DNA from: Haloplasma contractile
GTDB lineage: Bacteria; Bacillota_I; Bacilli_A; Haloplasmatales; Haloplasmataceae
Length of the DNA stretch: 64,000 nt
Reading direction: 5' to 3'
NCBI GenBank assembly: GCA_016841945.1
Contig: JAENYC010000002.1
Location: 1 to 64,000, forward strand
How positions within the stretch are numbered: position 1 is the stretch's first letter; the number at the start of each line of letters is the position of its first letter. Shown piece after piece: positions 5,872 to 25,147 of the stretch. The position numbers and the translations under genes are program-made. Below the pieces are notes generated by a model. The model had not been told where the DNA came from. It saw only the letters and a program-made list of their open reading frames with translations, and made no database searches.

Positions 5872-7593
5872 ATGAAGTTTTATAAAAATAATAGTATTAG
5901 AAAACAAATCCTAATTCTAGCCTTTACCATGATTTTTATGGTCGTGATTACACAAATTGCTTATTATGTTGCCGTATCCTCTTTCGCAACTAAACAAAGT
6001 AATCAATATGTTGATGAATCCTTAAAAAACATCAATCGTCAATTAGAAAAATCAATGAATTCAATCATGCATAATGCAACATTAATATCAACCAATCAAA
6101 GTGTTAAAGAAATTCTATTAGAAAATGATAGTACAAATAGATATGCCTTATCAAAATATATTTATGACTATATGTCCTATATGATTTCATCTCCTTATAT
6201 TAGCGACATTATATTAATGGATAATCAAGATAGACGGCTAGCTGCTGTCAATAGACTAGACCCCACTTCAGAAAGAGAGTTAATAAAAGAAGTTGAAGCA
6301 AGTCAACAATGGTTTTATTGGACAGGGACTAAGAAGACCTTGTCAAATTATAATTATACCGCATTAGGTTTTAAAATATATGAACAAAACAATATCATTG
6401 GCATAGGCATTATCATTACAGATGCGATGTATTATCAAGAAACATTAAAGTCAAATTTATTAAGTCAAGAACAAGTGCTAATACTTCTTGATGATAATGA
6501 TATTTTACTATCAACAAATAGTAATAAAAACGACATACTTTTTAGTGAAAATAAAGATTATTTTAATAATAACTTAAATGATTATTTATTAAATAAATAT
6601 ATAGTTTCTGAGCATCAATGGGAAATTATTAGTTATATTCCTAAAGATATTATTAGTGAGGATTATGATTTTGTTAAAAATACAATCGTTATCATGGGGA
6701 TTGTATTTATTTCTATTATGCTGATTTGGATGACGATTATTGTAAGAAATATTTACTACCCAATAAGAAGTTTGAAAGAATATATATCTAAATCAACAAG
6801 TAGTAAACCAGATACAAGATACAATTTTAATACGAATAATGAAATCTTAACCATCAAAAATACTGTGAATAATATGTTAGATACAATAGAAATAAATACT
6901 AGGAAGATATTTCAACAGCAAACAGAGATGCATAATCTTGAAATGGTTCGAAAAGAAATTCAGTTAATGAATTTTTTTGCTCAAATTAATCCTCATTTTT
7001 TATACAATACTTTAGAGACCATAAGAGGATTAGGTGTAATTAATGAAGAAAACAGAATTGTAAATATTACCACTTCATTAGCTGCATTATTACGATACAG
7101 TATTAAATCAGATTCATTTGTATTAGTAAAAAAAGAGGAAGAAGCAGTAAAAAACTATCTTAATATAATCAATATTCGTTATAATGAAGAAATTGCTTAT
7201 ACAATTGATATAGATAAAAGTTTACATGATGAAAAGATCATTAAAATGATTATACAGCCTTTTGTAGAAAATGCTATAAAACATGGATATGATTTAGAAA
7301 AGCCAATGACCATTCAAATAAAGTTGACAAAAGAACACCATAAAATGAGATTAACAATTGCTGATAATGGGTTAGGTATGAAGAATAGTAAAATTAATGA
7401 AATCTATCAAAGGTTTAGAAGTGATTATAGTTTAAACAAAATAGATAATGAAAATATAGGGTTATTTAATACATTTGCTAGATTAAAATTATTATATGGA
7501 AATGAGTTTAATATTAATGATTTTATTATTTTAAGTGAAGAAGATATTGGAACTATTATTACCATCTATATACCTATCATAAAATCTAACTAA
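5872..7593 (+). CDS. Sensor histidine kinase, YesM/LytS-like (His_kinase family)
   Basis: A 573-residue membrane sensor. A first membrane helix (about 12-35) is followed by an extracellular sensing domain, a second helix (about 268-290), a HAMP-like linker and a coiled coil. The phosphoacceptor lies in the Q-I-N-P-H-F-L-Y-N motif (H375). The N-box Q-P-F-V-E-N-A-I-K-H-G and the G-box D-N-G-L-G-M of the ATPase domain follow. This family pairs with YesN-type AraC response regulators, and one is encoded at 11216. It probably senses an extracellular sugar or the sugar-loaded binding protein and controls this locus. GGGGT precedes the ATG. Confidence 0.92.
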   Translation: MKFYKNNSIRKQILILAFTMIFMVVITQIAYYVAVSSFATKQSNQYVDESLKNINRQLEKSMNSIMHNATLISTNQSVKEILLENDSTNRYALSKYIYDYMSYMISSPYISDIILMDNQDRRLAAVNRLDPTSERELIKEVEASQQWFYWTGTKKTLSNYNYTALGFKIYEQNNIIGIGIIITDAMYYQETLKSNLLSQEQVLILLDDNDILLSTNSNKNDILFSENKDYFNNNLNDYLLNKYIVSEHQWEIISYIPKDIISEDYDFVKNTIVIMGIVFISIMLIWMTIIVRNIYYPIRSLKEYISKSTSSKPDTRYNFNTNNEILTIKNTVNNMLDTIEINTRKIFQQQTEMHNLEMVRKEIQLMNFFAQINPHFLYNTLETIRGLGVINEENRIVNITTSLAALLRYSIKSDSFVLVKKEEEAVKNYLNIINIRYNEEIAYTIDIDKSLHDEKIIKMIIQPFVENAIKHGYDLEKPMTIQIKLTKEHHKMRLTIADNGLGMKNSKINEIYQRFRSDYSLNKIDNENIGLFNTFARLKLLYGNEFNINDFIILSEEDIGTIITIYIPIIKSN

Positions 7594-7681
7594 AATTTTC
7601 AAATTCTACATAATTTTTTTCATTTAAATCATTCTTATATCTTGTTATATTAAATGTATATCATGAATAAGGATGATTCAT

Positions 7682-8623
7682 ATGAATAGTAATATGTCAA
7701 TAAATAATAAATCTCGCTTTTCAACATGGAAAAGGATAAAAGCAAATCGATTTATTTATTTTCTTTTAATACCTGGATTAATCTTCTATATCGTATTTGC
7801 ATATTTACCTATGTATGGAGTTTTACTTGCTTTCCAAGATGTTGGAATAGGAAGTAGCTTATTAGGTAATGAGTGGATTGGTTTAGAAAACTTTCAAAGG
7901 CTTTTTGAAGATGAAGAGTTTTGGATAGCGTTTAGAAATACCATAATCATCAGCTTTGGAAGATTAATTACAGGTTTTTCTATACCCATAATTCTTGCAA
8001 TTTTAATCAATGAATTATGGCATAGTAAGATTAAAAAAACAATTCAGACAATTGTTACCTTCCCTCACTTTTTATCATGGGTTATCATCTCTGGGATTAT
8101 ATTCAATTTATTATCAGGAGATGGCTTAGTCAATGGTATAATAGAATTTTTTGGACATGATAAATACTATTTTTCAAAAGAACAAAATCTTTTTAGACCA
8201 TTGTTGTATGTTTCAGGAATATGGAAGAGTGCTGGATGGGGCAGCGTTATTTATTTAGCAGCAATATCTGGTATCAATCCTGAATTATATGAAGCAGCAA
8301 CAATTGATGGTGCTAGTAGATTACAAAGGATACGATATATTACTTGGTCTGGTATGAAACCAGTGGTTGTTTTAATGTTGTTATTAAGTATCGGAGGAAT
8401 AATGAATGCTGGTTTCGAACAAATATTCTTAATGTATAATCCAACATTATATGATGTTTCGGATATTATTGATACTTACGTTTATCGTCGAACATTTGTT
8501 GATGGTGCTGATTATGGTTTGAGTACTGCCGCAGGATTATTTAAGTCTGTTATTAATATCACATTATTAATATTTGCAAATTACATTAGTAAAAGAATTG
8601 ATAAAGATTATAGTATTTTCTAA
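7682..8623 (+). CDS. ABC sugar transporter permease, LplB/YtcP-like
   Basis: A 313-residue integral membrane permease with six predicted helices. The binding-protein-dependent transport signature E-A-A-T-I-D-G-A lies in the loop before the fifth helix, where the ATPase docks. It matches the LplB type, which pairs with a second permease and a large solute-binding lipoprotein, both encoded directly downstream. AAGGA lies 8 bases before the ATG at 7682; an ATG three codons earlier overlaps that site. No ATPase gene is nearby. Confidence 0.93.
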   Translation: MNSNMSINNKSRFSTWKRIKANRFIYFLLIPGLIFYIVFAYLPMYGVLLAFQDVGIGSSLLGNEWIGLENFQRLFEDEEFWIAFRNTIIISFGRLITGFSIPIILAILINELWHSKIKKTIQTIVTFPHFLSWVIISGIIFNLLSGDGLVNGIIEFFGHDKYYFSKEQNLFRPLLYVSGIWKSAGWGSVIYLAAISGINPELYEAATIDGASRLQRIRYITWSGMKPVVVLMLLLSIGGIMNAGFEQIFLMYNPTLYDVSDIIDTYVYRRTFVDGADYGLSTAAGLFKSVINITLLIFANYISKRIDKDYSIF

Positions 8624-8639
8624 GAAGGTGAAAGATAGT

Positions 8640-9527
8640 ATGAAGCGCTTACGTATAAAGAAAAAAAGAAAGAAATTAGATATTATAGATTACATCGTCA
8701 TTGTGACGTTATCTCTTTTTGCCATATCGATTATTATTCCTTTTTATAATTTATTAATGGTATCTATTGTACCGCAGAAAGTATATTTAGAAAATCCCTT
8801 TATTATGATTCCTAAAATGGCTACTTTAGCTAATTACAAGGCTGTATTTTCTGATTCAAGTATACTTGATGGTTATTTAATCACATTAATTGTTGTATTA
8901 GTTGGAGTACCCTATAATTTATTTTTAATTTTCACATTTGGTTATGCATTAAGCAAAAGAAAATTTTGGGGGAAAAACTTTGTTTTGAATATGGTAATTA
9001 TCACAATGTTTTTTAGTGGAGGAACGATACCATATTTCTTAGTTGTAACGAGTTTAGGTTTATTTGATAATATACTTGCTTTGATTCTGCCATATGGAAT
9101 TAATACATTTTATATGTTAATCGCAAGGAACTTTTTTCAACAAATACCTAAAAGTTTAGAAGAATCAGCAAAGATTGATGGCGCAAATGAATTTAGGATA
9201 TTATGGTCCATTATTCTACCGGTGTCAAGACCAATCATGGCAACGATTTTCTTGTTCTGTGTTGTAGACCGATGGAATGAATGGTGGAATGGATTATTGT
9301 TTATACAAACAAAAGAGTTGAGACCACTTCAATTAATATTACGTAATATTATCAATACACAAAACTTTAATACAAGTAACATGCCACCTGCAATTCAACA
9401 TTTGGTATTTTCAGAAGGGATAAAAGCAGCTAATATATTTATTGTAATGTTGCCAATTATGCTTGTATATCCATTTGTTCAAAAACACTTTATAAAAGGT
9501 GTATTAATAGGTTCTATAAAATCATAA
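8640..9527 (+). CDS. ABC sugar transporter permease, LplC/YtcP-like
   Basis: A 295-residue second permease of the same importer, with a basic N-terminus, six predicted membrane helices and the docking-loop motif E-S-A-K-I-D-G-A. AGAAGGTG precedes the ATG at 8640. Earlier in-frame starts would overlap the upstream permease and lack a ribosome binding site. It most likely forms a heterodimer with the preceding gene product to import an oligosaccharide released at the surface. Confidence 0.93.
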   Translation: MKRLRIKKKRKKLDIIDYIVIVTLSLFAISIIIPFYNLLMVSIVPQKVYLENPFIMIPKMATLANYKAVFSDSSILDGYLITLIVVLVGVPYNLFLIFTFGYALSKRKFWGKNFVLNMVIITMFFSGGTIPYFLVVTSLGLFDNILALILPYGINTFYMLIARNFFQQIPKSLEESAKIDGANEFRILWSIILPVSRPIMATIFLFCVVDRWNEWWNGLLFIQTKELRPLQLILRNIINTQNFNTSNMPPAIQHLVFSEGIKAANIFIVMLPIMLVYPFVQKHFIKGVLIGSIKS

Positions 9528-9550: not shown

Positions 9551-11197
9551 ATGAGAAAAAGTTTAATATTTGTTGTATTAAGTGTTACATTAATGTTTTT
9601 AGTGTCATGTAGTAAACCTAAGCTAGAGTTCAATGATACGGTCACAGATGACTTATCGGTTCATATTGATTTAACATGGGGAGCATTTTCAGGTGCTGGG
9701 TTAGGAAGCGATGATTTATATGATTATATATCAGAAAGATTTAATGTTGATATTAAAATGGTCACATTAGATTGGAATGAAAGATTAACACAAGTGAGAA
9801 CGTGGGCAATGGGTAATAAATTACCAGATGTTACTTTCTTTGAAATGAATAAAAATGATTTTATGGATTATATAGACGGTGATGTGATAAGACCAATGCC
9901 GACAATTACAGAAGAACAATATCCAAATCTATATCGTCAATTACAATCGATGAAACCATATGTCGAGGAAACCTTTGTTGATGGTAAACAATATGCTTGG
10001 CCAAGACTCTCTGGGCAAAATAAATATACGGATTTAAATTTAGATTCATTTATGTATGTATATAGAAGAGATTGGGCAGAAGAATTAGAATCAGAAGGCA
10101 AGTTGACATTTGAACTACCAGATGATAATACTTTTACGATTGAACAAGTAAAAGAACTCGCCAAGGCCTTTGTAGACAATAATATGGGTGGCGAAGATAC
10201 TATTGGATTAATTGATCAAGATTTCGCAATTCCAAGTATTATTGGTGCTTATTCACCAAATGGTTGTCCTGCCATGATTACTTATGTAAAAGATGATAAT
10301 GGTGATTATGTATGGGGTGGATTATTAGATGAAACGATTGAAGGCATAAAAGAGTTTAAAGATTGGTACGACCAAGGTATTTATTATCAAGAATTTTATG
10401 CGATGCGTGGTTATGATAATCAATATAAATATTATGCATCACAAGCGGGAATCACTTATGATAATTTACCAGTGATAAACTTTCATTACCTTCGCTCTGG
10501 TTTTGCACAAGCGAATCCAGAACTAGATGTTTATAAAGCGACAACGCCAATGTATGTAAAAGGGACTAACGATAAATTCTGGAGTAGAGAAATGCCAAAT
10601 TATTGGTCATATAATATCTATAATGGACGTACTGTTACAGATGAAAAAATGGCACGTATTCTAACGATTCAAGACTGGATTGCAAGTGAAGAGGGAACGT
10701 TATATACTTGGTTTGGTATTAAAGGTAGAGATTGGGAGTATGCAAGTGAAGATGATACAGAAGATACCATATATATAGAGGAATTTGATACGACGATTAA
10801 GTTAATGTGGGAAAAGGATTCTAATGGTAATTTTGTTTCACCAAATTACCCAACAATGGGTATTCGAAACTTTAATCAATTAGCGAGTGATTTTGATTGG
10901 TATAATCCAAGCATTCCAAAAGATACAAAAGAAGCGGTAAAAGCATGGCAAGAACTCCGCACAGAAGAAAATACTTATATTGTAGAATATAATCCAGAAC
11001 TAACCTTAAAACGTGATGGAGTAAATTATTTAAGAAATGATAATTTCTTCCAAGAATATCAAGATAAATTAAAACAATTAGTCGCAGAAGACGATTATAC
11101 AAAAGAGGATGTAGCGAGTGAATTTATAAAAGCATTTTCTAATGAAAGTTCTATTGGTAAAAAATTAAATCGAGTATTAAATGAACTGAATGAATAA
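9551..11197 (+). CDS. Extracellular solute-binding lipoprotein, LplA/YtcQ-like
   Basis: A 548-residue product with a lipoprotein signal peptide (lipobox L-V-S-C near residue 20) followed by a long type-1 solute-binding fold. Its length and the Y-D-Y-I-S-E-R-F-N-V-D-I opening are typical of the large LplA-type proteins that serve LplBC permeases. Aromatic-rich segments such as W-S-R-E-M-P-N-Y-W fit sugar stacking. It should capture oligosaccharides at the membrane surface for the permeases at 7682 and 8640. A strong GAGGAGAG site precedes the ATG. Confidence 0.92.
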   Translation: MRKSLIFVVLSVTLMFLVSCSKPKLEFNDTVTDDLSVHIDLTWGAFSGAGLGSDDLYDYISERFNVDIKMVTLDWNERLTQVRTWAMGNKLPDVTFFEMNKNDFMDYIDGDVIRPMPTITEEQYPNLYRQLQSMKPYVEETFVDGKQYAWPRLSGQNKYTDLNLDSFMYVYRRDWAEELESEGKLTFELPDDNTFTIEQVKELAKAFVDNNMGGEDTIGLIDQDFAIPSIIGAYSPNGCPAMITYVKDDNGDYVWGGLLDETIEGIKEFKDWYDQGIYYQEFYAMRGYDNQYKYYASQAGITYDNLPVINFHYLRSGFAQANPELDVYKATTPMYVKGTNDKFWSREMPNYWSYNIYNGRTVTDEKMARILTIQDWIASEEGTLYTWFGIKGRDWEYASEDDTEDTIYIEEFDTTIKLMWEKDSNGNFVSPNYPTMGIRNFNQLASDFDWYNPSIPKDTKEAVKAWQELRTEENTYIVEYNPELTLKRDGVNYLRNDNFFQEYQDKLKQLVAEDDYTKEDVASEFIKAFSNESSIGKKLNRVLNELNE

Positions 11198-11215: not shown

Positions 11216-12622
11216 ATGTATAAAGTGATAATCATTGATGATGAGCCAATTGTATTAGAATCAATTAAAAAATCAATACAGTGGGATAAATTAGGTTATA
11301 CAGTGGTAGGAACCTTTAGAAATCCTATCAGGGCGATTGAGTATTTAATAGATAATGTCTGTGATTTAGTTATCACAGACATTAAAATGCCACAGATGAC
11401 AGGAATAGAACTGATTAAAAAAATAAAACAGCTAGATATTAAAACAGAATTTATGATAGTAAGTGGATATGCTGATTTTCATTATGCAAAAGAAGCCATT
11501 CATCTAGGCGTTTATGATTATATATTAAAACCAATAGATGTGAATCAAATTAATGAAATATTAATGAACTTAAAGATCAACCTTGATAATAAGACCACAC
11601 AACAAGAAATCATTACTTTAGAAAAAATGAAATCTGATGTAATAGATGTTAAACAAATTTTTCCTGTTTTAAATGAGGGTTATTTGGTTGTTGTGATTAA
11701 GTTTAAAGAAAAGTCAATGAATCTATTTAAAAACATATCAGATTTGGTTGTGTTTAATATCTCACATGCTAAAAACATGGTGATTTATTTGTTTGAGTTA
11801 AACAACCTAAATGATGTCGAAGACTATATTATAGAAAATCAAAAATATATTGTATCAGTCGGTATTGATAAATGTTTAGATAATGAAAAATCATTTGGCA
11901 AAACCCTACATCAAGCACTAGTTGCTTGTTACTGTGGAATTTTTACCCATGATAAAAAGATTTGGTATTATGAAAAACCTTCTAATAATGAAATATTAGC
12001 GTTATTTTATGAATTTAAAGACATGGTTGTCAGTAATAGACCAGATGTCAGTATGATAGATAAACTAAAAAAGGTATTTTTACAGAGTAAAAATCCGATT
12101 GAAGCATGTGTCATTTTTAGTGTGTTAATGAGTCAACTTGAAACCAATAAACCATATGAAAAAGAGAAGAATTTTGAAAACATTTTGTTGCAAGCAGACA
12201 GTATGTTAGAACAATATCAACAAATAGATGATTTTGTAAATTATATTAAAGAATATTTAGAGATACAAACAAATAAGAAAAAAGATTATGCTCAAAATGA
12301 ACTATTAGAAGATATTAGAACTTATATTGAAAACAATTATCATCAGCCATTAAAGCTTAAAGATGTTGCAGATAAGTTTTATATCAATATGAATTACTTA
12401 TGTCAAATATTTAAAGATTATTATTCATGTGGATTTATTGATTATTTAACGAATGTTAGATTAACTAAAGCAAAAGAATTGCTTGCGAATAAGAATCTAA
12501 CCATTGCTAAAATAAGTGAGATGGTAGGCTATAATGACCATTATTATTTTATCAGGGTTTTTTCGAAACATTATAATATAACACCTGGTAAATATCGATT
12601 AAAGTATTACATTAATGAATAA
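11216..12622 (+). CDS. Response regulator, YesN-type with AraC DNA-binding domain
   Basis: A 468-residue cytoplasmic regulator. The N-terminal receiver domain (about 1-120) shows the acidic pair D-D near the start, phosphoacceptor Asp in V-I-T-D-I-K-M-P, and Lys in Y-I-L-K-P. A middle linker region precedes a C-terminal AraC-type double helix-turn-helix (about 365-468) ending in the G-Y-N-D-H-Y-Y-F-I-R-V-F signature. It is the expected partner of the kinase at 5872. Their separation by three transporter genes is common in such loci. Start chosen at the ATG 5 bases after GGGTGA. Confidence 0.93.
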   Translation: MYKVIIIDDEPIVLESIKKSIQWDKLGYTVVGTFRNPIRAIEYLIDNVCDLVITDIKMPQMTGIELIKKIKQLDIKTEFMIVSGYADFHYAKEAIHLGVYDYILKPIDVNQINEILMNLKINLDNKTTQQEIITLEKMKSDVIDVKQIFPVLNEGYLVVVIKFKEKSMNLFKNISDLVVFNISHAKNMVIYLFELNNLNDVEDYIIENQKYIVSVGIDKCLDNEKSFGKTLHQALVACYCGIFTHDKKIWYYEKPSNNEILALFYEFKDMVVSNRPDVSMIDKLKKVFLQSKNPIEACVIFSVLMSQLETNKPYEKEKNFENILLQADSMLEQYQQIDDFVNYIKEYLEIQTNKKKDYAQNELLEDIRTYIENNYHQPLKLKDVADKFYINMNYLCQIFKDYYSCGFIDYLTNVRLTKAKELLANKNLTIAKISEMVGYNDHYYFIRVFSKHYNITPGKYRLKYYINE

Positions 12623-12641: not shown

Positions 12642-13643
12642 ATGATGAACAGCAAAGAACGAGTTATTAAGACGCTTAATTTTGATTATCCTGATAAAAT
12701 TCCTGTTGATTTTTGGTGCTTACCATCAGCTGAAATGAAATATGGAGAGAAGTTAAAAAAAATATTAAATGAAGTACAAATTGATTTTGTCAGAGCGCCA
12801 TTTGATGACCCAACAGAAAGTCAGGACATATATAAAACCGGTACTTTTAAAGATGTATGGGGTTCTGTATGGCATAATTTACAAGATGGAATTATTGGTG
12901 AAGTAAAAACACATCCACTAGATGATTATCATCATTTAAAACATTATAAAACACCGAAATCATTATTGTTGAGCGCGAAAGATAAATTTAGTGAGACCAA
13001 TCAATTCATCAAAAAGCATCAAAATAAATTTATCTTTGGTGGATGGATTAATATTTTTGAAAGAATGCAGTTTTTACGCGGAACAGAAAATTTATATATT
13101 GATCTCGCATTAGATAGTAAAGAACTATATACTCTTAGAGATATGGTAGTTGATTATTATCGAGAATATCTTAAATTATGGTTAAAGACTGATGTTGATG
13201 CGATTATTTTTGCTGATGATTGGGGTTCACAAAAATCTTTATTAATTTCTCCAAAAACATGGAAGAAGGTATTTAAGCCAGTCTATAAAGAGTTATTTGA
13301 CATGGCAAAAAACGCAAATAAATATGTCTTTATGCATTCTGATGGTTATATTTTAGATTTATATGATGAATTCATTGATTTAGGAGTCGATGCGATTAAT
13401 TCACAGATATGGTGCATGGGTGTTAAGAAAGTATCTAGTAAATGTAAGGGTAAGATTACACTTTGGGGTGAACTAAATCGTCAAGAAACATTACCTCATG
13501 GTAAGAAAGAAGATATTGAACAGTCGGCTAAAGAGATGATAGAAAATCTTTATCATAATGGTGGGCTCATTGGACAATTTGAAGCAGCAAAAGATATGCC
13601 ATTAGAAAATATTAAGACAGCTTTAACAGCATGGAATAAATAG
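12642..13643 (+). CDS. Uroporphyrinogen decarboxylase/MtaA-fold protein, paralogue 1
   Basis: A 333-residue URO-D superfamily TIM barrel. The family includes uroporphyrinogen decarboxylase and corrinoid or thiol methyltransferases (MtaA, CmuA). Here the usual zinc-site H-x-C-G is replaced by H-S-D-G (H232, D234), so classical Zn-thiolate chemistry is doubtful. F-A-D-D-W-G and N-S-Q-I-W are other landmarks. It sits in a glycosidase operon rather than among haem or methanogenesis genes, which suggests action on a modified sugar or a sugar-derived acid. That is inference. GGGAGG precedes the ATG at 12642; a second ATG follows immediately. Confidence 0.8.
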   Translation: MMNSKERVIKTLNFDYPDKIPVDFWCLPSAEMKYGEKLKKILNEVQIDFVRAPFDDPTESQDIYKTGTFKDVWGSVWHNLQDGIIGEVKTHPLDDYHHLKHYKTPKSLLLSAKDKFSETNQFIKKHQNKFIFGGWINIFERMQFLRGTENLYIDLALDSKELYTLRDMVVDYYREYLKLWLKTDVDAIIFADDWGSQKSLLISPKTWKKVFKPVYKELFDMAKNANKYVFMHSDGYILDLYDEFIDLGVDAINSQIWCMGVKKVSSKCKGKITLWGELNRQETLPHGKKEDIEQSAKEMIENLYHNGGLIGQFEAAKDMPLENIKTALTAWNK

Positions 13644-13653
13644 GAGGATTTAG

Positions 13654-14604
13654 ATGAATTCAAGAGATTTAGTTAAAAAAGCACTTCATTTTGAACATTG
13701 TGATGAAATTCCAACAGATAGACACGATGCCACAGGTCCTATGTTTACATATGGGAAAGGTCGTATTAGCGGTGTTCCTTTTGGAGTAAAAGGAGAAAGA
13801 ACAGATGAATGGGGCGTTAAATGGGCAGCAGCTGAAGATGGTGTTTCTGGAGAAGTTGTGGAACCATTGATTAAAGAATGGTCTGATTTAGATGGATTTA
13901 AACCACCCTATGATGTTTTAGAAGAAGCAGATTTAAGTGGAGTTGATGCTTTTTGTGAATCCTCTGATAAATTTATAGTTCCAATGTGGTGGGCTAATTA
14001 CAATCTGTTTGAGAGAATGCAAAATTTGCGTGGAACAGAACAATTATTAATCGATTTAGCCTTAAAAGAACCAGAATTATTTAAGTTAAGAGATATGGTT
14101 CATGATTATTTTATGAGACAAGCTAAATTATGGGTGAATACAAAAATAGATGCCCTACATATAGCGGATGATTGGGGTTCTCAAAGTAGTTTACTCATAT
14201 CACCAAAAATGTGGCGAGAGATGTTTAAACCCTATTATAAAGAATATTGTGATTTAGCGCATCAGCATGGGAAGTATGTGATCATGCATTCTGATGGCTA
14301 TATTTATGATATTATTGAAGATTTAATTGAAATAGGTGTAGACGCAGTAAATAGTCAATTATTTTGTATGGATATTGATCAATTAGCAGAGAAGTTTCAC
14401 GGTAGAATCGCATTCTGGGGTGAAATTGATAGACAGACGACATTACCTTTTGGAACAGAAGAGGATTGTCGTAAAGCAGTGAGACGGGTTGCTAATGCAT
14501 TCTTTAAATATGGAAAAACAGGTATTATTGGACAAGCTTTTGTAGGAAAAGATATTTCCGAGGAAAATTTAGCTGCTGTATATGATGAATGGAAAAAAAT
14601 ATAA
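13654..14604 (+). CDS. Uroporphyrinogen decarboxylase/MtaA-fold protein, paralogue 2
   Basis: A 316-residue paralogue of the preceding gene, sharing F-E-R-M-Q, L-R-G-T-E, D-D-W-G-S-Q, the variant H-S-D-G motif (H212, D214), N-S-Q-L and G-E-I-D-R-Q-T-T-L-P. The two probably arose by tandem duplication and could form a heteromer or act on two related substrates. AGGAGG precedes the ATG and only 10 bases separate the genes, so they are co-transcribed. The substrate is unknown. The reaction of the named family is decarboxylation or methyl transfer. Confidence 0.8.
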   Translation: MNSRDLVKKALHFEHCDEIPTDRHDATGPMFTYGKGRISGVPFGVKGERTDEWGVKWAAAEDGVSGEVVEPLIKEWSDLDGFKPPYDVLEEADLSGVDAFCESSDKFIVPMWWANYNLFERMQNLRGTEQLLIDLALKEPELFKLRDMVHDYFMRQAKLWVNTKIDALHIADDWGSQSSLLISPKMWREMFKPYYKEYCDLAHQHGKYVIMHSDGYIYDIIEDLIEIGVDAVNSQLFCMDIDQLAEKFHGRIAFWGEIDRQTTLPFGTEEDCRKAVRRVANAFFKYGKTGIIGQAFVGKDISEENLAAVYDEWKKI

Positions 14605-14629
14605 AAACAGAAGAATAAGGTGAACAGGT

Positions 14630-15649
14630 ATGAAATTTAAAAAATACAAGAATAACCCAATATTAAAAGCCAATCTAAAAAATGATTGGGAAAGTTTATG
14701 TGTGTTAAATCCTGCAGTTTGGTATGAGGAAAACGATGAGACGTTTTATATGTTATATCGTGCTGCTGGTAATGATAAAACCCATTATATTCATTTAGGA
14801 TTAGCAACTTCAAAAGATGGATACAACTTCACAAGAGTAAGTGATGTCCCTGTTTTATCACCGGACCCAAATGGCCCTGATGGAGGATGTATAGAAGACC
14901 CACGTGTTGTTAAATTTGGTGATGTTTATTATGTCACCTATGCTGCAAGAGCTTATGCCCCTGGTCAGTATTGGTCAAGTGATTGGAAGCCTTTAGGTGA
15001 AAGACCAGAGGAAGGACCACATTTTCTTAAACAGAATAATGCATTAACTCATCTTGCGATTACTAAGGATTTTAAAGATTTTAAACGATTAGGTAGAATC
15101 ACTGATTCTAGAATAGATGATCGTGATGTTATCATTTTCCCTGAAAAAGTGAATGGAAAATATGTTAAATTAAGTAGACCTGTTGAATATTGTGGAGACG
15201 GTTATGGTTGTAGCGTCCCTAGTATTTGGATTTCTTTTAGTGATGATTTATTAGAGTGGGATCAACCACAATTATTGATGACCAAAAAAACCTGGTGGGA
15301 AGATAAAAAAATTGGTGGTTCGACGCCGCCCCTTCGTACAAAAGCAGGATGGTTACATCTTTATCATGGTGTCAGTACAAAAGACGACGCCTATCGTGTA
15401 GGCGCTGTATTGTTAGATTTAGATGATCCAACAAAGATTATCGCAAGAACGAAGGATTTTCTAATGGAACCAGAATTTGAATATGAGACATCAGGTTATT
15501 ATAATGGCTGTGTTTTTCCAACGGCTAATTGTATAGTTGATGATACCTTGTTTATCTATTATGGTGCTGCTGATAAATATGTTTGTGTGGCCACTTGTGA
15601 TGTCAATGAACTCGTTGATTATTTATTAAATGTGGATAAGGTGACATAA
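14630..15649 (+). CDS. Glycosidase/phosphorylase of the five-bladed beta-propeller type, GH130-like
   Basis: A 339-residue cytoplasmic protein whose N-terminus (K-Y-x-x-N-P-I-L), repeated beta-propeller blades, C-I-E-D-P-R-V motif and G-G-S-T-P-P segment match GH130 (formerly DUF377). Family members are mainly beta-mannoside phosphorylases or hydrolases. The Asp of E-D-P-R lies at the site of the family's proposed catalytic acid. Directly followed by a GH2 beta-mannosidase with a one-base overlap, it fits intracellular breakdown of imported beta-mannosides to mannose 1-phosphate or mannose. The exact specificity cannot be read from sequence. Confidence 0.85.
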   Translation: MKFKKYKNNPILKANLKNDWESLCVLNPAVWYEENDETFYMLYRAAGNDKTHYIHLGLATSKDGYNFTRVSDVPVLSPDPNGPDGGCIEDPRVVKFGDVYYVTYAARAYAPGQYWSSDWKPLGERPEEGPHFLKQNNALTHLAITKDFKDFKRLGRITDSRIDDRDVIIFPEKVNGKYVKLSRPVEYCGDGYGCSVPSIWISFSDDLLEWDQPQLLMTKKTWWEDKKIGGSTPPLRTKAGWLHLYHGVSTKDDAYRVGAVLLDLDDPTKIIARTKDFLMEPEFEYETSGYYNGCVFPTANCIVDDTLFIYYGAADKYVCVATCDVNELVDYLLNVDKVT

Positions 15650-18117
15650 TGTATTTGTCGTTAAATGGAAGTGATTGGACATTACAAGGTTATTATCCTT
15701 ACTCGCAGCAGTTTAATTTAGAATCAGGAATTAATTTTAACGTGTCACCACTGACAGAAGAATTTAAAGCGACGGTGCCTGGTTCTGTTCATTTTGATGC
15801 TTTCCAAAATGGTTTGATTGATGACCCTTATTATGAAATGAATAGTTTAAAAGCTGAATGGATAGAACATAAGAGTTGGTGTTATAAAAAAGAATTTTCG
15901 ATAGATAAAAAAGATATAAAAAAACAGTTTAAATTAGTTTTTGAAGGTGTGAATTTTGAAGCAAGATTTTATTTAAATGGAAAGTTATTAGGCATGCATA
16001 AAAATGTTCATACCCCTATTAGTTTTGATGTCACAGATATAATAAAAGAAAAAAATACATGTCAAGTTTTATTATCTCCTGTACCTGTTGAACAACCACA
16101 AATGGGTTTTAGTTCTAAAGTACAATATCAAACACAACGCTTTGGTTATGGATGGGACTTTTGTACGAGGATGATTGGAATTGGGATATGGAAAGATGTA
16201 AAGCTTTATGTCTATGATGATTGTTTATTAAATGATTTTCACATTGAATCAGATGTTAAGAATAATGAGGGTTTAATATCTATTACCGGTGATATATCAG
16301 CAGAAGAAAATGTAAAAATAGATTTGGAATTATCCTTTGATGATGAATTAATAGATAAGTTTGAGTTAATGACGAATAATCATTATCATCATATATTTAA
16401 GGTCAATAGTCCTAAGTTATGGTGGCCTAATACCTATGGTAAACAACCTCTATATAAGATAAAAATCAAATTATATACAAAAAAGGGTCTACAAGATGAA
16501 AAAGAGTTTAAAGTAGGCATTAGAAAATTACGTTATCAAAAGAATGAATGCTGTCCAAATGATGCGATTGATTATACAGTTTGTATCAATGATAAAAAAA
16601 TATGGTTAAAAGGTGTTAATCTATTGCCATTTGATCATATGATTGGCAGAATAGATAAAGAAGCAATTGATTCCTATTTTCAATTACTTAAAGATGGAAA
16701 TATTAATTTAATTAGACTATGGGGTGGAGGCGTTTTAGACAAAGAGTATTTGTATGAAAAATGTGATGAACTAGGTATTCTAGTTTGGCAGGACTTCACT
16801 CAATCTAATAGTGGTTTAGATGGACTTCCTTCTCTACTTGATGAGTTTTTAGATGAATTTAAGAAAAGTAGTATTCATTGTTTAAAGACAAAACGTAATT
16901 ATACTTCCGTTACCATCTATAACGGTGGAAATGAATTAAAGGATGAAAATGGAAATCCTATTACCACTGATAATGAAAATATAAAAATGTTAGATGATTT
17001 AGTGAAACTATATGATCCAAATAAGATTTTTCATCCTTCTTGTCCTAGTGGACCGAATTTTAATAAACAGGATAATGAAGGAGATCATAATATTCATGGT
17101 CAATGGGTATATTTAGGTCCAGAAAATCATTATTCCGTCTTTAATAAAGGAAATTATTTATATCATGGTGAATTCGGTGTAAATGGTTGTTGTAATTTAG
17201 ATAGTATGAAAGAGTTCTTTTCAAAGGACATCATGAAAGAATATAAGACAGGTAATACAAACAACTGGTTATTAAGAAATAATGGTTGGTGGAATTCCTA
17301 TCCTCGCGAATGCGAATTATTTGGTGAGGATAAAATGGATGATATTGAAAACTTTATCAGGGCTTCACAACTCATACAAGCAGAAGGACTTCGTTATATT
17401 GTAGAAAGAAATAGAAGTCGCTCATTTCAATGTAGTGGTAATAATATTTGGCAGTTCAATGAACCTTGGCCTAATGCCAATTGTAGTTCTATGGTGGATT
17501 ATTATCAAAGACCTAAGATGTGTTATTATGTCATAAAGAATAGTTATAAACAAACTAATATTAATTTAAAATATAGTAAGCTATATTATGAATTAAATGA
17601 AGCATTAGATATAGAAATAATATTAAATACATTTGAAGAAGATTTTGATTGTCAAGTAATTTGTGAATTATTAACGGCGCAAAAGCTCATTAAGAAATTT
17701 ACATACAATGTAAAAGCAAAAGAGAATAAAAGTGTTCTCATAGATAAATTAAGTCATCTAGTGACAGATGATTATGGTGAATTATTCTTTATTAGGTTAG
17801 AAGTTTTTAGAAAAGAACAATTAATCGCAACTAATTTATATACTTTTGGAACAAGTAAAATAACACCCCTTAGACCATTATTTGATTATGTTGGAGATTT
17901 AGATGTTAAGTGTAAGAATAATGAACTTGTATTAACCAATATAGGACATTTACCGTGTTTATATCTTTCGATAAATCCAAAATCGAAAACCATGATTAGT
18001 GATAATTATGTTACTTTATTTCCAAAGGAATCAAAAACAATAAAAATAAAAGGAAAAACAAAATCATTAGTAATACGTGATTTTACTGGAAAAATTAATA
18101 AATCAATAGATAGGTGA
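15649..18117 (+). CDS. Glycoside hydrolase family 2 beta-mannosidase
   Basis: An 822-residue cytoplasmic enzyme without signal peptide. The N-terminal sugar-binding beta-sandwich opens with L-N-G-S-D-W and V-P-G-S-V-H, typical of beta-mannosidases. It is followed by an immunoglobulin-like domain and a TIM barrel. The acid/base Glu is in N-G-G-N-E (E429) and the likely nucleophile Glu in H-G-E-F-G (E508). It should release mannose from beta-mannosides. The start overlaps the previous stop, with AAGGTGA upstream, so translation is coupled. Confidence 0.9.
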   Translation: MYLSLNGSDWTLQGYYPYSQQFNLESGINFNVSPLTEEFKATVPGSVHFDAFQNGLIDDPYYEMNSLKAEWIEHKSWCYKKEFSIDKKDIKKQFKLVFEGVNFEARFYLNGKLLGMHKNVHTPISFDVTDIIKEKNTCQVLLSPVPVEQPQMGFSSKVQYQTQRFGYGWDFCTRMIGIGIWKDVKLYVYDDCLLNDFHIESDVKNNEGLISITGDISAEENVKIDLELSFDDELIDKFELMTNNHYHHIFKVNSPKLWWPNTYGKQPLYKIKIKLYTKKGLQDEKEFKVGIRKLRYQKNECCPNDAIDYTVCINDKKIWLKGVNLLPFDHMIGRIDKEAIDSYFQLLKDGNINLIRLWGGGVLDKEYLYEKCDELGILVWQDFTQSNSGLDGLPSLLDEFLDEFKKSSIHCLKTKRNYTSVTIYNGGNELKDENGNPITTDNENIKMLDDLVKLYDPNKIFHPSCPSGPNFNKQDNEGDHNIHGQWVYLGPENHYSVFNKGNYLYHGEFGVNGCCNLDSMKEFFSKDIMKEYKTGNTNNWLLRNNGWWNSYPRECELFGEDKMDDIENFIRASQLIQAEGLRYIVERNRSRSFQCSGNNIWQFNEPWPNANCSSMVDYYQRPKMCYYVIKNSYKQTNINLKYSKLYYELNEALDIEIILNTFEEDFDCQVICELLTAQKLIKKFTYNVKAKENKSVLIDKLSHLVTDDYGELFFIRLEVFRKEQLIATNLYTFGTSKITPLRPLFDYVGDLDVKCKNNELVLTNIGHLPCLYLSINPKSKTMISDNYVTLFPKESKTIKIKGKTKSLVIRDFTGKINKSIDR

Positions 18118-18123
18118 TTGAAT

Positions 18124-19179
18124 ATGGATTCATTTAAACCTGATTATAAGAATGTGATAAAAGCAGCACAAAATAAAAAAACAAATCGAATACCACTATA
18201 TGAACATGCAATTGATCACACTATCATGGAAAAAGTGCTGAATAAAAAGTTTGCTGATTTATTTTTAGGTGATGATAAAGATAAATTAGAGTTTTTTAGA
18301 CATTATTGTCACTTCTTTAAAGAAATGGGTTATGATACGGTTAGTTTTGAATGTTGTGTTGGTCCTGTCATGCCTGGAAGTGGTGCTTTAGGAAATCATC
18401 AACCAGGTATCATAAAAACAAAGGAAGATTATGATAAATATCCTTGGGATAAAATACATGATTACTATTTTCAAGCCTATGAAAGTTATTTTAAAGCACT
18501 AAGTGAGGTCATGCCAAAAGGCATGAAGGCAATTGGTGGTGTTGGAAATGGTGTTTTTGAATGTGTACAAGATATTGTAGGATATACAGATTTATGTTAT
18601 ATATCGGTTGATGATCCAATACTCTATCAATCATTGTTTAAAAAAATAGGAGATATCCTTAAGCAAATATGGCATACTTTTTTAACAAAGTTTGGAGATA
18701 CATTTGCGGTTTGTCGTTTTGGAGATGATTTAGGATTTAGAACGAGTACTTTAATATCAGACACGGATATTAAGAAACATATCATTCCTCAATATAAAGA
18801 AATAATCGAAAATATTCATTCTTTTAATAAACCTTTCTTACTCCATTCTTGTGGAAATATCTTTAATGTGATGGATGAATTAATTAAAGAAGCAAAAATA
18901 GATGCTAAACATTCAAATGAGGATGCAATAGCACCATTCACAAAGTGGATTGATCTCTATGGTGATAGAATTGGTATCTTTGGTGGAATAGATACAGATA
19001 TTCTTTGTAGAGAAAGTGAAGAAGAAATTGAAAGACGTGTATTTGAAGTGATGAACTATTGTAAAGATAAGAATGGATTTGCGATTAGTTCTGGTAATTC
19101 AATCCCAGATTATGTCCCTGTAGAAGGGTATCTAGCAATGATAAATGCGGTAAAAAAATTTAGACTAAATAATAACTAA
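18124..19179 (+). CDS. Uroporphyrinogen decarboxylase/MtaA-fold protein, paralogue 3
   Basis: A 351-residue URO-D superfamily protein more distant from paralogues 1 and 2. It keeps the H-S-C-G-N motif (H241, C243) used for zinc in MtaA/CmuA-type methyltransferases, but the C-terminal cysteine of those enzymes is replaced in S-S-G-N-S. Of the three paralogues in the locus it is the best candidate for a methyltransferase. No corrinoid-binding protein gene is nearby. The ATG at 18124 has AGGTG 7 bases upstream; a TTG at 18118 is too close to that site. It is the last gene of the operon, followed by a terminator. Confidence 0.8.
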   Translation: MDSFKPDYKNVIKAAQNKKTNRIPLYEHAIDHTIMEKVLNKKFADLFLGDDKDKLEFFRHYCHFFKEMGYDTVSFECCVGPVMPGSGALGNHQPGIIKTKEDYDKYPWDKIHDYYFQAYESYFKALSEVMPKGMKAIGGVGNGVFECVQDIVGYTDLCYISVDDPILYQSLFKKIGDILKQIWHTFLTKFGDTFAVCRFGDDLGFRTSTLISDTDIKKHIIPQYKEIIENIHSFNKPFLLHSCGNIFNVMDELIKEAKIDAKHSNEDAIAPFTKWIDLYGDRIGIFGGIDTDILCRESEEEIERRVFEVMNYCKDKNGFAISSGNSIPDYVPVEGYLAMINAVKKFRLNNN

Positions 19180-19252
19180 TTAAAAGAAAATACTAATATA
19201 TTCATGAATAGAATAATATTAACGATATAGAAATACAATCTCCTAGATGATT

Positions 19253-19291
19253 AAAGGCAATTTGAAGAATCAAATTGCCTTTAATCTTTTT
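19253..19291 (+). terminator. Terminator ending the mannoside locus
   Basis: A perfect 13-bp stem, AAAGGCAATTTGA with TCAAATTGCCTTT around a 4-base loop, followed by a T-rich run. The core stem equals that of the terminator at 359. Confidence 0.85.
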
Positions 19292-19408: not shown

Positions 19409-19735
19409 ATGAAAATTATTAAAACTCCTAAATATGTACGAGATATAAAAACTAAATTAATAAGAAAAAATAAAGTAAAAGAGTTAGAAAAAATTGTTTT
19501 GATTGAAAACTTACTTGTTCATACTGATAATATGAAAAAGTTATTACTCAATCCTTTAGCGAAAACATATAATATAGAAAAGAAGAAAGGGAATTTAAAA
19601 TATTATTATACAGCAAGATTGAATAATAAATTGAGATTATTTATTAGGCCAATTGGAGATTATCCTTATGATTTAAATCAGATTGTTGAAATCGAGCTAA
19701 TTAAGATTGATAATAAACATTATGGCGATGGATAA
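19409..19735 (+). CDS. RelE/HigB-like toxin
   Basis: A 108-residue basic protein with the pattern of the RelE superfamily (HigB/plasmid killer type). It has an N-terminal helical region rich in Lys, the K-Y-Y-Y-T-A-R-L-N-N-K-L-R-L-F-I-R beta core, and a C-terminal I-E-L-I strand. Members cut mRNA on the ribosome. It lies directly upstream of an XRE antitoxin, the higBA gene order. I chose ATG 19409 because it gives the family-like N-terminus, although the AGGTGA site is about 15 bases away; GTG at 19391 would overlap that site. Confidence 0.82.
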   Translation: MKIIKTPKYVRDIKTKLIRKNKVKELEKIVLIENLLVHTDNMKKLLLNPLAKTYNIEKKKGNLKYYYTARLNNKLRLFIRPIGDYPYDLNQIVEIELIKIDNKHYGDG

Positions 19736-19748
19736 AAAGGAGGAACTT

Positions 19749-20765
19749 ATGGTTTATTTTGGTTTATATCTTAAAGATTATTTAGAAGATGCCAGAATTT
19801 CTCAAACTGAGTTTGCGAATAGATTAGGTATAACACAAAAGTATATGAATGAAATAATAAATGGGAAAAAGAATATTACAATGGAAATGGCAGGACACAT
19901 AGAAAGATTAACTGGTATTGATGCAAAGTTTATCATGAATATTGAAAATACAAGAAAAATGAAGTGTAAATTATTAGAACAGTTTAGGAATGAAGAAAAT
20001 CTAAAAAAATATCTTAAAGAATTTCCTATCAATGAACTTAAGAAAAGGAATTGGTTAGTTTTTAAAGATGAAACGAATATATTTCAAATAAGTTTAGATT
20101 TACTAAATTTCTTAAAAGTTAAAGATTTTAATGTTTTTGAATCGTTAGAAAAAAAAGTATTATTTAAGAAAAATGGAGAAGATTTTAAGAAACTAAGTTT
20201 ATGGATTGCAAGATGTGATGAACTGAGCTTGAATCAAGAAGTTAATGAATATAAAAGTGACTTCTTTAATAATCTAATCAACCATCTAAAAACTGAAGCT
20301 TATCAAAATCCTTATAATGAAGAAAGAATTTTAGAAATATTAAATTCATATGGCATCTTATTTGTGGTTGAAAAAGCATTATCAGGGACAAAAGTAAGAG
20401 GAGTATTTAAAGTAAATGGTAATACACCAGCTATATATTTAACTAAAAATTATCGTGGAAAAGATTCATTTTATTTCGAATTATTTCATGAATTAAAACA
20501 TTGTAAGAGTGATTATAATGAAGGAAAAAATAAAATTATCGCAAATGGAGAAGAATTAAAAGAAAAAAGAGCTGATGATTTCGCTCTTAAAACAATGATT
20601 AAGGATGAAGTTTGGAATTTAATTGTTGAAGATTATTCAGAAGAAAATATTATTAATATATCAGATAAATTTAAGATTCCACCAAGTTTTATTGTTGGAA
20701 GACTTGCATATAATAAATACATAACCTATAAAAGTGATTTATATCATAAATATAAAGATGTATAG
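19749..20765 (+). CDS. XRE antitoxin fused to an ImmA/IrrE metallopeptidase domain
   Basis: A 338-residue fusion. An XRE helix-turn-helix (about residues 10-65, with S-Q-T-E-F-A-N-R-L-G) should bind the palindrome at 19352. A helical middle follows, then an ImmA/IrrE (DUF955) domain with the zinc motif H-E-L-K-H (H247, E248, H251). Such peptidases cleave repressors in mobile-element and stress switches. Fused to an antitoxin it may allow self-cleavage or target cleavage that frees the toxin, which is inference. ATG 19749 has AAGGAGG 5 bases upstream. It follows the toxin by 13 bases and converges on the helicase gene. Confidence 0.88.
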   Translation: MVYFGLYLKDYLEDARISQTEFANRLGITQKYMNEIINGKKNITMEMAGHIERLTGIDAKFIMNIENTRKMKCKLLEQFRNEENLKKYLKEFPINELKKRNWLVFKDETNIFQISLDLLNFLKVKDFNVFESLEKKVLFKKNGEDFKKLSLWIARCDELSLNQEVNEYKSDFFNNLINHLKTEAYQNPYNEERILEILNSYGILFVVEKALSGTKVRGVFKVNGNTPAIYLTKNYRGKDSFYFELFHELKHCKSDYNEGKNKIIANGEELKEKRADDFALKTMIKDEVWNLIVEDYSEENIINISDKFKIPPSFIVGRLAYNKYITYKSDLYHKYKDV

Positions 20766-20804
20766 AAAAGTGATAAATTCAGTGTGAAATTATCACTTTT
20801 TTAA
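20766..20804. terminator. Bidirectional terminator between convergent genes
   Basis: AAAAGTGATAA pairs perfectly with TTATCACTTTT around a 13-base loop, with T runs on the plus side and A-rich sequence on the other. It serves the antitoxin gene and possibly the minus-strand helicase. Confidence 0.8.
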
Positions 20805-20813
20805 TATGTTTAA

Positions 20814-23663
20814 TTACTTAATTAAATAATCATATATATCTTCTCTTACGGGTGGATTAATTTTAAATTTAAAATTAACAATTGGAACAACTTTTCCTTT
20901 ATTATCTTTAATGGTTGTTTCTTCTGCATGGAGAGGAGTTACTTCTCCAATGTAATAGTGTTCAGTTCCTTCATCGTCTGCTTTTTTAATGAATAAGTGT
21001 AAAATTAAACCTGTGTTTTTAGCATTTTTAATTTTAATTGTTTCTTTAGAATTTAAAGTTACTTTATTTCTAGTCATCCAACTAAATGTATTTTTATTTA
21101 TGAATTCATCTTGGTATTTAATGCTTTCTGAGATATTTTCATCTTTATTATAGGTTACGAAAATAGGACAAGCATTATTTCGTATCATATATCCATACAT
21201 GACACTTTGAAGGTTTGAATTCCAATTTAGTAATTGAGCCACTTCTTTTCTGGTGTATTTTTTATAATAAGAGAAATTAGATGTTTTACTTTTATAAGGT
21301 AAATAATTTTGTTGATAAATAGTTAAACCATATTGAATTAAATCATCAATAAAAAATTTGAAGTCTTTGTTTTGATGATAGGAATCAAGTAATGATTGTT
21401 TAAGACTTATTTTATTATCTTTATATAATGTAAATGTTTGATATTTTGGAAGCTCTAGTTTAGTTAAAAAATTTAAATTTAAATAATTGAACGCAGATAT
21501 GATAGATTTATTTTGATCTCCAATAATATTTTTGATCATGTTGGTATCTACAGTTTTATTGCTAATCATTTCTTTTAAGATAATTAATTCATGAGGTCTT
21601 TTTGCAGGTAAGAGTTCTTGACTAATAAATAGTATGAGATTTTCTTCTTCAGGATTTAATTGAAATAATTGATGTTTTTCAATCTTTTTTAAGAAATGAT
21701 AATAAGTTTTAGAATGATTTATAATGAGTTGAGGGTCTATGGAACCATATTTATTAAATTCTAACAAGGTAGGGATTTTTCCAATCTTGTTTCTTAGTTT
21801 TTTATATTCTTCTTTTAGAAAGGTAAGTCTTGTAAAACTGGTTCGATTAATATTTTCATATATTCTTTGACTTGATATTTCATCAAAACTAATGGTAGAA
21901 GCTCCTGGTATTGTATAATTACCTTCTATTAAAAATCGTCTTAGATTATCTTTGTTAAAAGATTTATCACCTGATAAAGCGACTGGAATAAGAAAGTTAT
22001 TTTGATAATTACCAATAAAATCGATTACAGTCACATATTCTTTGTTTTTTAGTTTTCTTAATCCTCTACCAAGTTGTTGAACGAATATAATAGCTGATTG
22101 TGTGGGTCTTAACATAATAATTTGATTAATGGAAGAAATGTCTATTCCTTCATTAAATATATCAACTGAAAAAATATATTCAAGTATAAATTCAGGGTCA
22201 TCAGTTTCAAGTCTTTTTATTGCTTCTTCTCTGTCAAGTTCTGAGTTTTTACCAGATAAAGCAATTGTTTTATATCCTATTTCATTGAATTTGTTGGATA
22301 ATTCAATTGCTTCTTCAACCCGACTACAGAATATTAATCCTCTAGGTCTATTGCCTGAGTATCCATAAAAATCAAGGGTATCAATAATGTGTTTGATTCT
22401 TTCAGTACATGTTAGTTTAGAAAATGATGAGTTATCATCTAATAGTTCTCCATCTATTTCAATTTCACTGACACCAAAGTAATGAAATGGTGATAATAAA
22501 TCTTCTTCTAGGGCATCTTGTAGTCTTATTTCATGAGCAATGTTGTAGTCAAAGTGTTTATAGATATCGAAACCATCGGTCCTTTCAGGAGTTGCTGTCA
22601 TTCCTAAAATAAATTTAGGAGTGAAATAGTTAATGACTTTAACATAACTTTCTGCACCAGACCGGTGTACTTCATCTATTACGATATAGTCAAAATGTTG
22701 TTTATCATAGTATTTTAATGTTTCATCTTTTGATAGTGTTTGAATTGTTGAGAATAGATAATCTGCATCGTAATCTTTATCCTTACCAGTTAACAAGCCA
22801 TAATTAATTTCACCAAGTATGTTTTGAAAACTTTCTATTGCTTTTCTAGCAATGTTTTCTCTGTGTACAACAAATAAAAACTTTTTAGGTTTATATTCTT
22901 TAACATCAAACGCAGATAAATAGGTTTTACCTGTACCAGTTGCTGATATTAATAAAGCTTTATTTTCACCAAAAGCTCTTAAGTTCATTAAAGATTGTAA
23001 TGCTTCTATTTGCATTTTATTCGGTTTAATTTCTTCATTTATTTTAGTAATTTCATGATCTATTGATACACTGATTTGTTTATTATATTGAATTTCATAT
23101 TTTGTTAGTAAATCATCATCTAGTATATCAGCTTCATCCCATATTTTATTAAATTCATCAATGGTTTCTTTTAAAAGTTGTCCATTATCTAAAGAATTAA
23201 TTTTTATATTCCATTCTTTATTGTGAGTCAATGCTTCCTGTGTGAGATTAGCACTCCCAATAATTAATGTATTTTCATGAGTTTTTTTAAAGATATATCC
23301 CTTAGCATGGAAATTACCTCTATTATACATTCTTATCTCAATATTCCTGAACTTCATTAATCTTTTTAATGCTTTTGGATGAGTAAAATTTAGATAATCA
23401 GTAGTTAATATTTTACCAGGTATCTTCTTTTCTTCTAAATATTTGAGTGTATTTAGTAAGGTAATAATACCACTTTCAGTTATAAAGGCTACAGAAAAAA
23501 TAAATTCATGACATGAATCTAACTCTTTAATTATTTGTCCTAATACCTTAGAACCTTGTGTATAATCATTAATTAGTAATTTTGGCTGTAGATCTTCCAA
23601 TGATTCTACAGAATAATCGATTAATCCAGTTTTAATTGATTCTAATATCATTTTATCATTCAT
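20814..23663 (-). CDS. Phospholipase D-like nuclease/helicase with DUF3427
   Basis: A 949-residue protein. The N-terminal PLD-type nuclease domain has H-A-K (H119, K121) and G-S-A-N (136-139). A superfamily II helicase follows, with Walker A A-T-G-T-G-K-T (241-247), D-E-V-H (330-333), T-A-T-P, and a motif VI region containing Q-Q-L-G-R-G-L-R. The C-terminal DUF3427 region (about 790-949) includes R-K-E-V-A-Q-L-L. This architecture is found in restriction and defence islands, and some members belong to antiphage systems. A single PLD motif implies dimerisation. It stands alone on the minus strand with AGGGG before its start. The substrate is presumably foreign DNA, by inference. Confidence 0.88.
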   Translation of the reverse strand: MNDKMILESIKTGLIDYSVESLEDLQPKLLINDYTQGSKVLGQIIKELDSCHEFIFSVAFITESGIITLLNTLKYLEEKKIPGKILTTDYLNFTHPKALKRLMKFRNIEIRMYNRGNFHAKGYIFKKTHENTLIIGSANLTQEALTHNKEWNIKINSLDNGQLLKETIDEFNKIWDEADILDDDLLTKYEIQYNKQISVSIDHEITKINEEIKPNKMQIEALQSLMNLRAFGENKALLISATGTGKTYLSAFDVKEYKPKKFLFVVHRENIARKAIESFQNILGEINYGLLTGKDKDYDADYLFSTIQTLSKDETLKYYDKQHFDYIVIDEVHRSGAESYVKVINYFTPKFILGMTATPERTDGFDIYKHFDYNIAHEIRLQDALEEDLLSPFHYFGVSEIEIDGELLDDNSSFSKLTCTERIKHIIDTLDFYGYSGNRPRGLIFCSRVEEAIELSNKFNEIGYKTIALSGKNSELDREEAIKRLETDDPEFILEYIFSVDIFNEGIDISSINQIIMLRPTQSAIIFVQQLGRGLRKLKNKEYVTVIDFIGNYQNNFLIPVALSGDKSFNKDNLRRFLIEGNYTIPGASTISFDEISSQRIYENINRTSFTRLTFLKEEYKKLRNKIGKIPTLLEFNKYGSIDPQLIINHSKTYYHFLKKIEKHQLFQLNPEEENLILFISQELLPAKRPHELIILKEMISNKTVDTNMIKNIIGDQNKSIISAFNYLNLNFLTKLELPKYQTFTLYKDNKISLKQSLLDSYHQNKDFKFFIDDLIQYGLTIYQQNYLPYKSKTSNFSYYKKYTRKEVAQLLNWNSNLQSVMYGYMIRNNACPIFVTYNKDENISESIKYQDEFINKNTFSWMTRNKVTLNSKETIKIKNAKNTGLILHLFIKKADDEGTEHYYIGEVTPLHAEETTIKDNKGKVVPIVNFKFKINPPVREDIYDYLIK

Positions 23664-25097: not shown

Positions 25098-25108
25098 TTG
25101 TCAAATTT

Positions 25109-25117: not shown

Positions 25118-25147
25118 TAAATGAGTATATGTGAAGAGGTGAGACAG

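Follow-up and report, generated by a model that had tools for sequence, protein, structure and literature searches.

Four-part O-demethylases use a methyltransferase of the UroD superfamily (MT1) to move the methyl group of a methyl ether to the Co(I) of a corrinoid protein, which is kept active by a RACo-type activase (PMC13222342; PMC8630106). The UroD-superfamily methyltransferases MtvB, OdmB, VdmB and MtoB are O-demethylases of aromatic methyl ethers, and CdmB, a related chloromethane MT1, works without zinc (PMC13222342). The original prediction for the locus described here was that three proteins of the URO-D fold may demethylate or decarboxylate a modified mannose, a role thought not to be described for these families. 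In view of the known aromatic O-demethylases (PMC13222342) this was too strong. O-demethylation is already known in the UroD superfamily for aromatics, and the novelty would lie only in a sugar as substrate. Searches of the open-access literature for papers that describe URO-D proteins at sugar loci, or a corrinoid-dependent demethylation of sugars, found none.

Glycans of algae, molluscs, bacteria and plants can contain methylated sugars. In aerobes, P450 enzymes act on the 6-O-methyl-galactose of porphyran. To our knowledge, the removal of methyl ethers from sugars by anaerobes has no description.

Organization of the locus

The locus is in the window, which is the whole 64,000-nucleotide stretch of Haloplasma contractile DNA that was analysed. 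The predicted presence of three URO-D-fold genes (A, B and C) in a beta-mannoside locus holds, since the three open reading frames are intact, score above the PF01208 cut-off and have GH130 and GH2 genes as neighbors. The features of the locus are:

5872..7593, + strand: sensor histidine kinase of the operon's two-component system (Pfam His_kinase, HATPase_c)
7673..8623, + strand: sugar ABC transporter permease 1, predicted from the ORF sequence; similar ORFs occur in the genome's other sugar loci
8574..9527, + strand: sugar ABC transporter permease 2, predicted from the ORF sequence
9551..11197, + strand: lipoprotein, probable solute-binding protein of the ABC transporter (lipoprotein signal, no Pfam match, assigned by position)
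11216..12622, + strand: response regulator with an AraC-type DNA-binding domain (Pfam Response_reg, HTH_AraC)
12642..13643, + strand: protein A, URO-D fold, HSDG motif (Pfam PF01208; AF2 model, closest solved fold MtaA)
13654..14604, + strand: protein B, URO-D fold, HSDG motif, shorter N-terminal part (Pfam PF01208, alignment)
14630..15649, + strand: GH130, mannoside phosphorylase/hydrolase family (Pfam PF04041, 7e-55)
15649..18117, + strand: GH2 family exo-glycosidase, probably beta-mannosidase-like (Pfam GH2 domains; specificity inferred)
18118..19179, + strand: protein C, URO-D fold, HSCG motif, MT1-like (Pfam PF01208, alignments, relatives in corrinoid operons)
19249..19286, + strand: terminator-like hairpin, a 17-pair stem followed by TTTTT, at the operon end after C

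The GH130 and GH2 genes sit between B and C, and all three URO-D genes are on the plus strand. The first two spacings are 10 and 25 bases and the subsequent genes overlap or abut; A, B, GH130, GH2 and C are one operon. An alternative start for A is located at 12615. The GH130 protein matches the NCBIfam mannobiose phosphorylase models with scores below the model cut-offs.

The window also has two related proteins without a Pfam match at 2734-5823, one at 2734-4479 with a lipoprotein signal and the other at 4498-5823. They resemble TIM-barrel glycosidases and are possible unclassified glycoside hydrolases. Beside the operon, positions 19707-28661 are a likely defence island with genes for an ImmA/IrrE-type HTH protein, a type IV restriction-like helicase (mREase_IV, 776 bits), DndC (540 bits) and a DndD/PbeC-like ATPase.

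Family membership, motifs and predicted structure

In Pfam, the PF01208 scores of A, B and C are 57.6, 55.3 and 62.7 bits against a cut-off of 23.9, with E values from 1e-15 to 1e-17. None of the three matches the HemE model TIGR01464 even at E 0.01. The MtaA/MtbA MT2 family models have cut-offs of 235-600 bits and are not reached, the best score being 51 bits. A phmmer search of the PDB with A, B and C gave no match. In a profile search of the PDB, the profile of group I (the A/B branch) had no match and the profile of group IV (the group of C) matched only MtaA.

The motifs are as originally described, with HSDG in A and B and with HSCG but no C-terminal Cys in C. In a profile alignment of C's group with M. 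mazei MtaA, HSCG pairs with HICG and S-G-N-S pairs with P-G-C-G; therefore, the third zinc-ligand Cys is replaced by Asn (Asn327) in C. The same Asn is found in 9 of 9 relatives of C. The MtaA/MtbA zinc ligands His, Cys, Cys are absent as a set, being His-Asp-Glu in A, His-Asp-Phe in B and His-Cys-Asn in C.

The candidate metal triad of A is H232, D234 and E314 (numbered from the 12642 start), and B has a Phe where the triad Glu stands in A. At the triad places, 34 of the 42 distinct group I sequences, A included, have His, Asp and Glu, while B and its relative in genome G501 have His, Asp and Phe. Conserved polar residues are common in group I, and in A these are D192, D193, H232, D234, E277, R280, Q281 and E314. 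Each of the tandem group I pairs (window; G611, L150/L179; G642, L152/L181) has one full triad and a partner with a broken one (HDF, HNQ, HCY). Since its triad is incomplete, B may have become an altered enzyme or may serve as a partner subunit, and the broken-triad tandem copy is perhaps a partner subunit of the HSDG gene in several genomes.

Structure prediction, which had been proposed as a check, was run for A and C, and both models match MtaA and UroD. The AF2 model of A has a mean pLDDT of 94; its best PDB matches are MtaA (4ay7/4ay8), followed by UroD. The model of C has a pLDDT of 83 and matches MtaA and UroD about equally. For A, Foldseek also returned the zinc epimerase UlaE among the lower-ranked matches.

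Corrinoid system of the genome

The original prediction stated that no corrinoid, haem or cobalamin gene is near. No corrinoid or haem gene was found inside the operon, so this is correct locally, but it is misleading for the genome (G000, 3.43 Mb). A complete corrinoid methyl-transfer operon is available in trans on contig C69, away from the contig of A, B and C. It has genes for a GH36 galactosidase, DUF1638, a corrinoid protein (L024:14054-14683) that is the genome's only short one, an MtaA-like protein carrying a thioredoxin domain, the activase RACo (L024:12293-13954) and CobW. This complete system is itself beside a galactosidase. The lack of a corrinoid gene near A, B and C is no sign that the cell has none.

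The genome has 11 PF01208 matches. One URO-D paralogue (L023) adjoins an alpha-L-rhamnosidase and genes for rhamnose isomerase, aldolase and kinase. Others are on a GH4/ABC contig (L022), in a GH13/GH38 locus (L026) and with ABC and two-component genes (L025). None of the genome's URO-D proteins scanned against the HemE model is near its cut-off.

MtaA-like proteins are beside a corrinoid protein and CobW at L024:14786-16141 (contig C69), L104:8171-9538 and L106:4622-5971, and two of the three have a fused thioredoxin domain (Pfam). A protein thiol may serve as the methyl acceptor, an unusual arrangement if so.

Relatives of C

Genes like C occur in 6 other genomes of the 392 Bacillota. The gene order in G326 (L109) is C-type, corrinoid protein, MtaA-like protein with intact H-x-C-G and G-C, and RACo. 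These four genes resemble an O-demethylase operon in which the C-type protein takes the place of MT1. The MT2 of this locus weakly matches the MT1 CdmB (PDB 9rui). In G110, G211 and G315, one cluster holds a corrinoid protein, C-type, MtaA-like, GH13 and sugar ABC genes, and in G001 and G013, where contigs are short or truncated, the MtaA-like partner is present beside the C-type gene. These MT2-type partners keep both Cys, whereas groups I and IV have lost ligand Cys.

The closer relatives of C, with 44-52% identity, are in Lentisphaeria, beside GH38 (L130, L131), esterase or FAD-oxidoreductase genes. A more distant relative with 37% identity (G492, L148) adjoins a GH130 gene. There is no corrinoid gene next to the Lentisphaeria orthologues or the G492 relative, which for the Lentisphaeria orthologues counts against a corrinoid role.

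A PF12831 FAD oxidoreductase adjoins several C-type genes. FAD-dependent oxidoreductases near URO-D genes include L130:4629-5990 and L145:8217-9452 (both PF12831) and L087:6485-7936 (assigned by eye). A cluster of corrinoid protein, divergent URO-D, sugar ABC, GH13, C-type URO-D and MtaA-like genes is conserved in Bacilli (L104, L105, L107, L108, L026); its make-up hints that the substrate is a methylated alpha-glucan.

Relatives of A and B

Beyond this genome, group I was found in none of the 392 Bacillota genomes. It is present in 17 of 149 genomes of a Lentisphaeria class and 27 of 198 genomes of a Planctomycetota class, and also in Latescibacterota and Cloacimonadota. The closest relative of B is in G501 (63% identity). 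An adjacent corrinoid gene was found at only one of the 42 group I loci, which counts against a corrinoid role. In this locus (G447, L077) the HSDG gene begins 2 bases past the corrinoid gene, and AraC, CobW and RACo are divergent.

The 117 nearest neighbor proteins of the 42 loci are enriched in other URO-D proteins (10), AraC (7), GH38 (3), sulfatase (3) and GntR (3). In the family list of 80 distant control proteins, taken from these loci too, URO-D, AraC, GH38 and GntR have a count of 0 and sulfatase 1; the survey covers the 25 commonest families, and single-member control families are partly listed. A group I relative of HSCG type (L198) abuts a GH2 gene. Most A/B-type genes have AraC regulators, further URO-D genes and glycan genes in their vicinity, and there are no haem genes among the neighbor families listed. 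A haem function of A, B and C was rejected because there is no HemE match and no haem gene among the listed neighbors.

The H-S-D-G paralogues are thus not near haem genes, among the neighbor families listed, and only rarely beside a corrinoid gene, so the survey does not refute the original prediction. In the neighborhood survey it had proposed, glycan genes (GH38, sulfatase) recur. GH130 relatives at 14 Lentisphaeria loci have no URO-D gene beside them.

Among the matches listed, a short corrinoid protein is present in 15 of the 17 Lentisphaeria genomes with group I and in at least 43 of the 132 others; these counts were read by eye, with one of the 15 counted from L077, and ignore kinship. 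An association between group I and short corrinoid proteins in these genomes is therefore only suggestive. In the group I genome G508, the corrinoid match is MetH-sized only, among the matches listed, which counts against a corrinoid role.

Origin of the locus

In a quick tree with SH-aLRT support only, A, B and C are in separate places. B groups with G501 (99), A is at the base of group I and C is inside a Lentisphaeria clade (97), while the MT2-type proteins form their own group (97). A conserved A-B-GH130-GH2-C cluster was sought elsewhere and was not found. No close relative of the GH2 protein was found in 294 other Bacillota. The 14 Lentisphaeria loci without URO-D neighbors are those of the best GH130 relatives, and they count against the O-demethylase reading given below. 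The locus looks assembled, at least partly, from relatives of Lentisphaeria and Planctomycetota genes.

Proposed function

The best reading, with a probability of about 50%, is that A, B and C are UroD-superfamily MT1 methyltransferases which O-demethylate sugars with a corrinoid protein supplied in trans. This draws directly on the fold, the motifs, the operon, the corrinoid system present in the genome and the corrinoid operons that hold C-type genes and one A/B-type relative. C is rather likely to be a sugar O-demethylase MT1, since its relatives stand in the place of MT1 in operons of this kind at sugar loci. A and B are tentatively read as related enzymes that act on other positions or linkages, and all three would use the C69 corrinoid protein. 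Of the two reactions originally predicted, demethylation gains support from the C-type relatives in corrinoid operons by sugar genes and from the one HSDG relative after a corrinoid gene, but decarboxylation has no support.

The inferred reaction, sugar substrate, metal and use of the C69 corrinoid protein would fit together as follows. The operon would import and degrade mannosides with its ABC transporter, GH130 and GH2, and A, B and C would be substrate-specific MT1 proteins that remove O-methyl groups from the methylated sugars of the glycan. The methyl sugar would be bound in the barrel of each protein and its ether oxygen activated, in A probably by a metal at His232/Asp234/Glu314 and in C by His243/Cys245 and neighboring acids. 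The Co(I) corrinoid protein would attack the methyl group. The corrinoid protein, RACo and an MtaA-like second methyltransferase would come in trans from the C69 operon. Judging by the GH130, GH2 and GH38 neighbors alone, the substrate is presumably O-methyl mannose. Three further points count against the best reading; the operon has no corrinoid gene of its own, the neighbor genes name no methylated sugar, and the MT2 candidates are MtaA-like (thiol acceptors) and not tetrahydrofolate enzymes.

It is somewhat unlikely that A, B and perhaps C are corrinoid-free, metal-dependent sugar-modifying enzymes (isomerase, epimerase, lyase or hydrolase) on a reused URO-D barrel, with the corrinoid links of their relatives being secondary. 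The 41 of 42 group I loci without an adjacent corrinoid gene are consistent with such an enzyme, as are the AraC, GH38, sulfatase and xylose-isomerase-like genes that recur at these loci, the replacement of the thiol ligands by a His-Asp-Glu triad and the lower-ranked match to UlaE. However, the nearest folds are a methyltransferase and UroD, one HSDG gene is directly 3' of a corrinoid gene in a RACo/CobW cluster, and C-type genes are recurrent in corrinoid operons. A transfer in the other direction, in which A, B and C are MT2-like enzymes with methyl-corrinoid as methyl donor and a thiol as acceptor, not sugar as donor and corrinoid as acceptor, is quite improbable. Although there is weak similarity to the MtaA/MtbA models and MtaA is the best structural match, the MT2 partners keep H/F-x-C-G and the later Cys, whereas both of these Cys are missing from A and B and one is missing from C, and a separate ligand-complete MtaA-like gene is beside the C-type gene in at least 4 loci.

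The three proteins could also be horizontally acquired accessory passengers with no role in mannoside use. The absence of group I from the other Bacillota genomes, the different clades of A, B and C, and the GH130 relatives elsewhere without URO-D neighbors fit this explanation, but the genes are intact and tightly spaced amid the regulator, GH130 and GH2, with C last before the terminator, and it is considered very unlikely. A decarboxylase function, with a tetrapyrrole or a carboxylated mannose derivative as substrate, is highly improbable; UroD shares the fold family, but A, B and C have no HemE match at E 0.01, the scanned URO-D proteins of the genome are far from the cut-off, and the relatives sit with corrinoid genes and not with haem genes among the neighbor families listed.

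The O-demethylase reading may extend beyond this locus. A possible, undescribed and widespread anaerobic pathway for O-methylated glycans would use sugar-specific UroD-fold MT1 proteins, including the large HSDG branch with a His-Asp-Glu metal site. These proteins would be encoded at numerous glycan loci in Lentisphaeria, Planctomycetota and some Bacilli and would share one or a small number of corrinoid/RACo modules in each genome. If true, many genes labelled 'uroporphyrinogen decarboxylase' would gain a testable function, and glycan breakdown would be linked to B12-dependent one-carbon metabolism.

Comparison with known systems

The barrel fold is common to UroD/HemE and to A, B and C, but these have neither a HemE-level match nor a haem gene context. 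MtaA, a methylcobalamin:coenzyme M methyltransferase, is the best structural match of A and the joint best of C, and the position of its H-x-C-G is aligned. It differs in that its first Cys is Asp in A and B and its second is Glu in A, Phe in B and Asn in C, and the family scores are far below the cut-offs. CdmB shares the UroD fold and a corrinoid partner with the proposed reading of A, B and C. Its substrate is a haloalkane and its cavity is mainly aromatic, whereas group I has many conserved polar residues. MtvB, OdmB, VdmB and MtoB, which were likened by description, act on aromatic methyl ethers, whereas A, B and C are in a glycan catabolism setting with the corrinoid protein in trans. 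They have the same UroD fold, and their corrinoid protein, MT2 and RACo-type activase match the operons of C's relatives.
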